A stretch of 13,055 bases of DNA from Methylobacteriaceae bacterium (GTDB taxonomy: Bacteria > Pseudomonadota > Alphaproteobacteria > Rhizobiales > Beijerinckiaceae), in NCBI GenBank assembly GCA_019247255.1, contig JAFAPJ010000348.1, forward strand, positions 1 to 13,055, written 5' to 3'. Position 1 is the first letter of the stretch. Each line of letters begins with the position of its first letter. The notes below the pieces were generated by a model. The model had not been told where the DNA came from. It saw nothing but the letters and a program-made list of their open reading frames with translations, and did no database searches. Shown one piece after another: positions 9,249 to 11,052 of this stretch. The translations under genes were made by a program, and so were the position numbers.

Positions 9249-9276
9249 TACGGAGCCTCGCGATCGAAAGTTTCGC
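9249..9276 (-). promoter_or_regulatory. ECF-type promoter GAAAC-N17-CGTA of the fasciclin gene
   Basis: On the minus strand, GCGAAACTTT (9276-9267) and TCCGTA (9254-9249). Counted from GAAAC to CGTA the gap is 17 bases. The same two blocks at the same spacing occur before the cytochrome b gene and nowhere else that I found in the window. The AAC-bearing -35 and CGT-bearing -10 are typical of ECF sigma factors. Confidence 0.65.
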
Positions 9277-9337
9277 TCGTTGCTGAGAAGTTGCTCGGCC
9301 TCAACGAAAGTCGAAGATCGGGCGCAGGCGCGGCAGG

Positions 9338-10123
9338 TCAGATGCCGGCATACCACTCGTAGCCGCGATCGGCCCAGAAACTGCCGCGCCCTCGCCCGAG
9401 CTCCGAGAAGCCGTCGACGAGCTCGAGACGCCTGATGAACTTCGCCTGCTTGTAGCCCAGCTGGCGTTCGACGCGCAGGCGCAGAGGCGCGCCGTGCCGG
9501 ACGGGCAGGTCCTGCCCGTTCATCCCGTAAGCCAGGATCGTTTGAGGGTGAAAGGCGTCGACGAGATCGAGGCTCTCGTAATAGGTGCCGCTGCCGTCGA
9601 GCGTCGCCTCGGCCTCGTCGAAGCAATGGAAGACGACGTAGCGCGCCTCCGGGCGAAGGCCGGCCGTGCCGAGGATCGCGCGGAGCGGGACGCCGGTCCA
9701 CTTCCCGATCGCGCTCCAGCCCTCGACGCAATCGTGCCGCGTGATCTGGGTCCGTGCCGGGAGGCGCTTCAGGTCGTCGAGCGACAGGTCGAGCGGCGTC
9801 TCGACCTTACCGTCGACCCGCAGCCGGAAATCGGCGAAGCCGCCGTCCAGCAGCCGCGCGTAATCGTCGCCGTCCGGCATCTCGGTGCCGTTCGCCCGAA
9901 ACTCGGGCGACATCTCGGCTTCGGTGAACTCGCGCGCCAAGTTCCCGGGGGAAAGGAGCAGGCGCTGGGCCGAGCGCGTGAGCGTCTCGGCGAGCTCGAG
10001 CCAGCTCGGCGCGCCGGCGCTGCCCGTCGAGGCGGCGTAGGCTGCCGATGCGGCGCTGCCGAACGCGCCGGCGAGCAGAGCGCGGCGGGACAGGGCGACG
10101 CGCCTGATGCGCCCGCGGCTCAT
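9338..10123 (-). CDS. Tat-exported molybdopterin-dependent oxidoreductase (sulfite oxidase/MsrP superfamily)
   Basis: 261 aa from ATG 10123. A twin-arginine leader (L-S-R-R-A-L-L-A-G at 11-19, then AAYA at about 30) indicates folded export to the periplasm. The Moco-binding core has D-G-x-V-x-x-P (104-110), then [21 protein letters not shown] with the molybdenum-ligand cysteine C132, [23 protein letters not shown] (181-203), [25 protein letters not shown], and a C-terminal [14 protein letters not shown]. It lacks the C-terminal dimerisation domain of true sulfite oxidases and is shorter than MsrP. It overlaps the cytochrome b stop by 4 bp (ATGA), so the two are co-translated and the cytochrome is its probable electron partner. 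The substrate is unknown; a methionine-sulfoxide- or other S-oxide-like reductase or sulfite-type oxidation is possible. Confidence 0.9.
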
Positions 10124-10971
10124 GAGCCTGCCCTCGCGATCCGGATCGCGTAGCGGCCTGTTACCATCGACCGCATGTTGTTCCAGGGACCCGACAGCAC
10201 GACCATCGCGAGGTGGACGAGCGTGAACAGGACGAGCAGCGACGCGCTGATGAAGTGAAGCGTGCGCGCGCTCTGGCGTCCCCCGAAGAGGTCCACGAGC
10301 CAGGGCGCCGCCGCGTTGATCGCCGGCGACATGCACAGACCGGTCAGCACCATGACGGGCAGCAGGATCGCGACGACGGCCAGATAGGCCAGCCGTTGCA
10401 GGGCGTTGTAGCGCCGGGCGGCCTCGCCCTTCGGGAAGCGCAGCCGGGCGTGATCGGCGATCTCGCGCAAAAGGTGGGACGGCCGGACCTGGTCTCGGCT
10501 CGGCAGGACGTCGCGGCGCAGATGACCGGACAGCACTCCGTGGCCCAGATAGGCGAGGCCGTTGAACGCGAACAGCCAGGCGAAGAAGAAGTGCCAGCGC
10601 CGACCGTCCGCCAGGCTCTGCACGGCCGGAAGCGTGGCCCAGCTCGGGAAGGCCCGCAGCGCCTCTCCGTCCCGGCGGCCCGACACGCCGAGCACGCCGG
10701 TCGTCGGCAGCGTCACCGGCCCGACCCGGGCGAAGCCCTTGACCGTCTCTCCCTCGCCCGCGGCCCCGATCTCGAACGCGGCCCGATCAGGATCGGCGCC
10801 GTACTGCCCCCAGTACAGGCGCGGGTGCGCATTGAAGATCTGCAGCCCGCTCGGCAGCAGGACCGCCATGCAGATGACGTTCACCCAATGCGTGACCCGA
10901 ACGAGCGCCGAATGTCGGCGCACGAGCAGGCGGGTCGTGCGCGATTCATCCGTCCCGGTGAGCGGTTTCAT
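10120..10971 (-). CDS. Cytochrome b561/b6-like di-heme membrane subunit
   Basis: 283 aa with four to five membrane segments, of the cytochrome b/b6 (Ni/Fe-hydrogenase or thiosulfate reductase b-subunit) type. Segments lie at about 26-45 (with H28 in RVTHWVN), 126-150 (H127, H144 and H150 in RRWHFFFAWLFAFNGLAYLG-H), 191-212, and 237-260 (H239 and H253). These histidines are candidate ligands for two b hemes. The insert at 47-120 is the periplasmic or loop region usual for this group (LYWGQYG, PSWATLP). The end PWNNMRSMVTGRYAIR is a strong family signature. It should pass electrons between the quinone pool and the Moco protein encoded immediately downstream (4-bp overlap). The promoter at 11025-11052 lies about 55 bp upstream of ATG 10971. 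Confidence 0.9.
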   Translation of the reverse strand: MKPLTGTDESRTTRLLVRRHSALVRVTHWVNVICMAVLLPSGLQIFNAHPRLYWGQYGADPDRAAFEIGAAGEGETVKGFARVGPVTLPTTGVLGVSGRRDGEALRAFPSWATLPAVQSLADGRRWHFFFAWLFAFNGLAYLGHGVLSGHLRRDVLPSRDQVRPSHLLREIADHARLRFPKGEAARRYNALQRLAYLAVVAILLPVMVLTGLCMSPAINAAAPWLVDLFGGRQSARTLHFISASLLVLFTLVHLAMVVLSGPWNNMRSMVTGRYAIRIARAGS

Positions 10972-11024
10972 GGAGGCCTCGGCCGCGTCGACGCCTTGAA
11001 GCCGAGGCGCGATCTGCCCAGCAT

Positions 11025-11052
11025 TACGGAAGGTCCGCGCGCAAAGTTTCGC
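11025..11052 (-). promoter_or_regulatory. ECF-type promoter GAAAC-N17-CGTA of the cytochrome b/Moco operon
   Basis: On the minus strand, GCGAAACTTT (11052-11043) and TCCGTA (11030-11025), a 17-base gap from GAAAC to CGTA. It is identical in both blocks and in spacing to the site at 9249-9276, while the spacer sequence differs. The implied start near 11018 leaves a leader of about 47 nt. Confidence 0.65.

Follow-up and report, generated by a model that had tools for sequence, protein, structure and literature searches.

Two promoter-like sites of the same two-block design precede a fasciclin gene and a cytochrome b/molybdopterin (Moco) oxidoreductase operon in the window, the whole 13,055-nucleotide stretch of Methylobacteriaceae DNA analysed here. 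Both are probably read by a SigK-type (ECF18/19) sigma factor under the control of RskA, and a further site, inside the sigK gene itself, would drive rskA. The comparison of sequences on which this reading rests documents the motif with its exact spacing and the conservation of this motif upstream of fasciclin genes, as well as sigK, rskA and fasciclin as linked genes, a five-gene cluster in four genomes and a sigK gene in this genome. From these we infer SigK as the reader of both window promoters. The new part is the promoter sequence embedded in sigK, which lies outside the window.

The two sites and the genes behind them are collected in Table 1. The pattern GAAACTTT-N{13,15}-CGTA, scanned over the whole window, has exactly two matches, both of the form GAAACTTT-N14-CGTA and both on the minus strand, at 9249-9274 and 11025-11050. 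None of 200 dinucleotide-shuffled windows contains two matches to the same pattern (mean 0.00). The preliminary description of this DNA had reported a twin two-block motif with a gap of exactly 17 between GAAAC and CGTA and no third copy. These points stand: the measured gap is 17 in both copies, the flanking GCG...TCCGTA and the unlike spacers agree, and the window scan gave these two copies only. The distance from the last base of CGTA to the ATG is 42 nt for fasciclin (ATG 9206) and 53 nt for cytochrome b (ATG 10971). The earlier gene calls, fasciclin and cytochrome b/Moco oxidoreductase, are confirmed by matches to Fasciclin, Oxidored_molyb and b561. The first 4 nt of the oxidoreductase gene are shared with the end of the cytochrome b gene. 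The arrangement resembles MsrPQ, which has the same PF00174 molybdopterin family and a membrane b-type cytochrome partner. However, the window enzyme scores 107 bits against an MsrP cut-off of 207, with MsrP still its best NCBIfam match, and its partner matches b561/Ni-hydrogenase cytochrome models, with the MsrQ model absent among its matches in the family-model scan.

Table 1. Predicted promoters and genes in the window
Feature	Position	Strand	Basis or remark
Predicted SigK-type promoter, fasciclin gene	9249..9276	-	Exact match and shuffles; kept before many fasciclin homologues
Fasciclin promoter, -35	GAAAC 9274-9270, inside GCGAAACTTT 9276-9267	-	
Fasciclin promoter, -10	CGTA 9252-9249	-	Spacing 17
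Predicted SigK-type promoter, cytochrome b/Moco operon	11025..11052	-	Exact match; same-type motif in 12/40 homologous operons (own counted)
Cytochrome b/Moco promoter, -35	GAAAC 11050-11046	-	
Cytochrome b/Moco promoter, -10	CGTA 11028-11025	-	Spacing 17
Fasciclin-domain protein, 192 aa, PF02469	8628..9206	-	E 1e-34; N-terminus exported-looking by eye
b561-type cytochrome b, 283 aa, PF01292, first gene of operon	10120..10971	-	Reading frame and domain match
Molybdopterin-dependent oxidoreductase, 261 aa, PF00174 (Oxidored_molyb)	9338..10123	-	Reading frame and domain match

In the whole genome (82.65% complete), GAAACTTT-N{13,15}-CGTA has one extra match, at C51:3671 with N13, and its reversed-pattern control has none. 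The shorter core GAAAC-N16/17-CGTA gives 10 matches, against 10 for its reversed control, and by itself is not enriched genome-wide. Because the core is no commoner than its control, the case for promoters needs orthologues, and it is carried by the TTT-extended form together with the orthologue evidence.

Before fasciclin genes the expected conservation of the two blocks is found. In a survey of 60 related genomes, own included, 29 of the 30 listed fasciclin loci were counted, the fragment L077 being left out; further listed matches had no loci. An exact GAAAC-N16/17-CGTA lies no more than 350 bp upstream in 17 of these 29, with N17 in 12 and N16 in 5. Five of the remaining 12 (L057, L062, L065, L070 and L080) have a GAAAC..CGTA site with one mismatch, and the seven loci lacking a site are six distant homologues (40-61% identity) and L058, which is not distant (70%). 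Near sigK, GAAAC-N16/17-CGT without any GCATC-type site stands before 54 of 64 fasciclin genes, in a set that excludes fasciclin matches below 60 bits or with less than 100 nt upstream. At sigK loci, 55 fasciclin promoters yield the consensus TGAAACTTT, a spacing of 17 (42 promoters) or 16 (13 promoters), and then CGTANCT. Other -35 classes occur as well. GCATC-N16/17-CGTA and, in two Polaromonas genomes, GAATC-N17-CGTAT precede fasciclin in the loci L176, L178, L181, L186, L191, L204, L209 and L325 and in L368, L369 and L376; sphingomonads and Paraburkholderia are among the hosts of the GCATC class. On these upstream sequences, the other classes suggest a drift of the -35 specificity of SigK.

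For the cytochrome b operon the same expectation holds in part: 12 of 40 loci, own included, keep GAAAC-N16/17-CGT upstream (shuffle rate 0.85%), but the other 28 do not. Five of these have an ECF16-like GTAAC..CG[AT], two have GCATC..CGT and 21 have none of these forms. The 40 loci are full-length and taken from the top, 13 of 31 plus 27 of 68 listed matches; L328 and L365, discussed below, are outside them. With 17/29 and 54/64 for fasciclin against 12/40 for cytochrome b, fasciclin is, judged from upstream regions, the steady target and the cytochrome b operon the lineage-variable one. One genome (G029) has the motif before cytochrome b, yet no fasciclin was found there and no SigK-clade sigma was recognised among its matches. 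In one family of relatives (L132, L346, L349 and L350), a GAAAC-type cytochrome b/Moco site adjoins an ECF16-like sigma gene, with 36-38% identity in L132, L346 and L349 and 34% in L350. In L116, L352, L354 and L359 the operon has GTAAC-N17-CGTA instead, and these variants look as if the operon had been passed between ECF regulons. In some lineages ECF16 could share the cytochrome b promoter or own it.

Sigma-70 region 2 has six matches in this genome, one of them SigK-like. By sequence reading the six genes are RpoH-like, EcfG (after a NepR-like frame), ECF42-like, ECF26-like, ECF16-like and SigK-like; the family-model comparison covered the SigK-like and ECF16-like genes. The ECF16-like gene, on contig C76, has GTAAT-N17-CGTA (L009, 1364-1389) 12 nt before its listed ATG, by eye; this is near the published ECF16 form, and the next frame looks membrane anti-sigma-like. 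The SigK-like ECF gene is at the end of contig C63, is cut by the contig end and retains region 2 only. A relative, L161, has PF04542 and PF08281, the ECF architecture of sigma regions 2 and 4 with no others. The SigK model PRK09646 (cut-off 226) ranks third on L161 with 150 bits, behind two unnamed sigma models with 165 and 164, and second, below the cut-off, for L145 and for the own fragment. Two cysteines, which we take to be the conserved SigK pair (Mtb C133 and C183), are present in 9/9 aligned full-length SigK-like relatives, matched by position only, and the own copy ends before both.

RskA follows the SigK-like gene in relatives, as PF10099 in 2/2 scanned and, on a profile basis, at 127 of the 156 loci that have a sigK match. 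In this genome rskA was not found in the contigs, the sigK contig ends inside sigK, and fasciclin and sigK are on different contigs. In many relatives the SigK-like gene is close to fasciclin, with a SigK-type promoter before fasciclin. Rhizobium halophytocola DSM 21600 (L173) and Roseibacterium persicicum KMU-115 (L170) are examples of strains that have all of sigK, rskA and fasciclin. In four genomes (L143, L328, L365 and L206) the genes for fasciclin, cytochrome b and the Moco enzyme are clustered with sigK and rskA; in L365 cytochrome b is divergent from sigK and has its own GAAACTTT site ending in CGTT. Sphingobium fluviale (L214) has sigK, fasciclin, cytochrome b and Moco genes with no RskA match. 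The preliminary description had predicted a single ECF sigma factor controlling an envelope redox group, and had suggested looking for a sigma/anti-sigma pair with its own copy of the motif. A single ECF factor finds support, and its best candidate is SigK-type with RskA, a pair that is near fasciclin in many relatives and together with both targets in four genomes. The pair has its own motif copy too, but inside the sigma coding sequence and not upstream.

The intragenic site coincides with the conserved motif A-K-L-x-G-x-x-x-R-[I/V], which is encoded as GCG AAA CTT ... CGT ATC and contains GAAAC-N17-CGTA in frame. GAAAC-N17-CGT is present at that position in 84 of 127 non-identical sigK genes, while synonymous-codon shuffling within each gene gives a mean of 2.3 and a maximum of 7 over 300 runs. 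Elsewhere in the same 127 genes there are 3 further matches, about the shuffle level. The site is found in 54 of 59 sigK genes from the order-level scan. The 127 genes are 126 with adjacent rskA plus that of the window genome; the duplicate L312 and sigK matches lacking an adjacent rskA were dropped, and L193 (no letters there) was kept. From one listing of sigK matches, 60 regions nearer the top were taken, some related genomes being passed over. Searches of the open PMC literature for SigK/ECF19 promoters and for an internal sigK promoter brought up no description of the latter.

Codon choice at the site is strongly skewed. The Arg codon is CGT in 98/118 genes, against 263/2435 (11%) of the Arg codons elsewhere (Fisher 4e-68); for Lys, AAA is used in 88/103, against 202/605 elsewhere (1e-23). 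On the same tree, CGT is found in 10/126, 12/126 and 13/124 at three further invariant Arg columns. Across 106 column tests, that of the site Arg codon ranks highest (z 24). Also raised are CTT for Leu, GCG as the codon before and TTG at a later position, and all three lean toward the promoter consensus. Synonymous sites in sigK are otherwise near saturation; a control Arg column (CGT 10/126) needs 10 tree changes and the site (98/118) needs 12. Coding coincidence as an explanation of the intragenic matches was dropped, the codon bias and the synonymous shuffles being against it. Raised codons that have no promoter explanation are Arg45 AGG (z 12), Arg177 AGA (z 11) and Leu52 TTG (z 7.6), at alignment REF45, REF177 and REF52; the Arg177 bias possibly reflects the ribosome-binding site of rskA. 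The extended -10 is partly shared: it is CGTANCT before fasciclin and CGT ATC T inside sigK, with the T in 44/86 and TTG raised. The base before GAAAC is T in 51/55 fasciclin promoters and C in 77/86 intragenic sites, and the two window promoters carry C, like the intragenic sites. Two broader ideas were given up. Upstream autoregulation of sigK as a general rule finds a GAAAC-type motif in 4/127 sigK upstreams, and a GCATC-type intragenic site as a betaproteobacterial counterpart finds no exact match, since in L185 and L194 the fasciclin promoters are GAATC-N17-CGTAT and the intragenic site is GCATC.

The class of the fasciclin promoter goes with the presence of the intragenic site. With the site, 52 fasciclin upstreams comprise 49 GAAAC, 1 GCATC and 2 neither, the 49 having GAAAC-N16/17-CGT (mononucleotide shuffle rate 0.9%); lacking it, 12 comprise 5 GAAAC, 6 GCATC and 1 both. 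The class agreement has a Fisher value of 1e-5, from 49:1 against 5:7 with the two 'neither' loci omitted. The loci with a GAAAC-type fasciclin promoter and no intragenic site are L147, L154, L160, L212 and L280. CGTG before fasciclin is found in 7/7 loci with intragenic CGTG and in 1/42 others. These correlations are clustered on the tree and rest on few independent changes, of which CGTG accounts for 3; a tree-independent test of the motif agreement, for which no more than 2 independent pairs have support, is not significant. Presence of the site also varies with gene order. Where fasciclin is upstream of sigK in the same direction, the intragenic site is present in 1/6 loci; in the other linked arrangements, with fasciclin downstream of sigK, convergent or divergent, it is present in 50/57 (Fisher 6e-4 against 1/6). 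The six are a small set and include L147 and L280 from one genus, L181 of the GCATC class and L212 with fasciclin 2.9 kb off. An upstream, codirectional fasciclin promoter could already serve sigK-rskA. With no fasciclin within 4 kb, 33/64 sigK genes have the site. It is reasonably probable that many alphaproteobacterial sigK genes hold a SigK promoter in-frame, in region-2 codons, by synonymous selection, and that it yields RskA with no extra SigK.

Other readings of the window sites fit less of this evidence. A chance repeat would agree with a genome count of the core motif equal to its reversed control, but it is scarcely credible in view of 0/200 window shuffles with two matches and of orthologues that conserve the motif. 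The general stress response sigma factor EcfG has the consensus GGAAC at -35 and CGTT at -10. An ecfG-like gene is present, and the window -35 and -10 are each one base off these forms. Yet both window sites have A as the second base of the -35, GAAAC is common before fasciclin genes and the -10 is CGTA. Further, GGAAC-N15-18-CGTT is found in none of the 40 cytochrome b upstreams, and an EcfG match lies beside sigK in L160 only, among 20 loci examined, and we regard EcfG as a very unlikely reader of both promoters. An ECF16 (SigF/EcfF-type) sigma factor has more in its favour. An ECF16-like gene was recognised in this genome by sequence reading, ECF16 regulons take in YedY/MsrP-type genes according to the available parts of PMC3511200 and PMC8315932, GTAAC..CG[AT] precedes cytochrome b in 5/40 loci, and four GAAAC-type cytochrome b loci (L132, L346, L349 and L350) adjoin such a gene. 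The published ECF16 -35, as given in the accessible text, is GTAAC, however, whereas both window sites have GAAAC; it misfits the fasciclin sites, and the GAAAC fasciclin promoters sit at sigK-rskA loci. That the sigma factor on contig C76 reads both promoters seems to us improbable.

For the site inside sigK, the codon bias might instead serve RNA structure, translation or an internal start, with a fortuitous likeness to a promoter. This would be consistent with the deviation of other sigK codons (Arg45 AGG, Arg177 AGA, Leu52 TTG), with the letters of the site that the protein sequence alone supplies, and with the T before GAAAC, which is unmatched inside sigK. The match, however, extends over AAA and the G ahead of it, the Leu codon's C, CGT and the A/G that follows, at promoter spacing. 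The CGTG agreement of 7/7 against 1/42, though from few independent changes, and the absence of most intragenic sites where fasciclin precedes sigK also argue for a promoter. We hold the fortuitous likeness to be rather improbable.

In the SigK-RskA regulation proposed here, the membrane anti-sigma factor RskA would restrain SigK and an envelope signal would free it. Freed SigK would transcribe fasciclin, and also the cytochrome b/Moco genes in genomes that, like this one, have the promoter before them. Active SigK would also initiate within its own gene, and this transcript, which points at rskA, would yield mainly RskA; it may also yield a truncated SigK. Since the internal start would add RskA and not SigK, the response would be self-limiting, the added RskA ending it, with the off switch encoded within the on switch. 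If this is true, a widespread fasciclin family gains a sigma factor, a promoter and a target set, and a so far uncharacterised cytochrome b/Moco enzyme joins the same envelope response. A regulatory element would have been selected within the coding sequence of its own regulator, which would explain the shut-off of SigK. It would also warn against discarding matches inside genes in promoter scans.

MPT70/83-type proteins are fasciclin proteins. SigK-RskA with a fasciclin cassette is known from mycobacteria and Yersinia, as described in the available part of PMC7509140. The mpt83-sigK-rskA cassette (ECF18/ECF19, Veyrier et al., PMC7509140) likewise links fasciclin, a SigK-like ECF factor and RskA, with a SigK site before fasciclin. 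Here, in contrast, the -35 is GAAAC, with GCATC or GAATC in other lineages, the cytochrome b/Moco operon is added, and sigK has an intragenic promoter-like site that the available text of that report does not describe. The ECF16 regulons of SigF, EcfF and BcrS, in the accessible parts of PMC3511200, PMC3420878 and PMC8315932, likewise place an envelope YedY/MsrP-type molybdopterin enzyme under ECF control. They use a GTAAC -35 and a DUF1109 anti-sigma factor according to the same portions, whereas here these are GAAAC and RskA, and the main texts of the three papers do not mention fasciclin. The papers searched on S. meliloti RpoE1/RpoE4 mention neither fasciclin nor nex18. A promoter within a coding sequence of an ECF circuit is also seen in Caulobacter, where, in the available part of PMC13171946, the sigV promoter lies inside cabp. 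There a promoter in a neighbouring gene drives the sigma gene, whereas here it is predicted in the sigma gene and would drive the anti-sigma gene. Unlike the cabp case as presented in that part, the sigK site is kept by codon choice across genera.

The extra genomic match to the extended pattern, at C51:3671-3695 (locus L366, 472-496), has GAAACTTT..CGTA with a spacing of 16 and lies 47 nt 5' of an ORF for a 79-aa protein. The protein is secreted-looking and rich in Met, His and Arg, with Met/His/Arg-rich repeats at its end, and is possibly an oxidation sink within the same regulon. The Brucella ECF16 regulon, in the portion of its description available, has a Met-rich protein, and the Met/His-rich protein here may belong with the window genes too.
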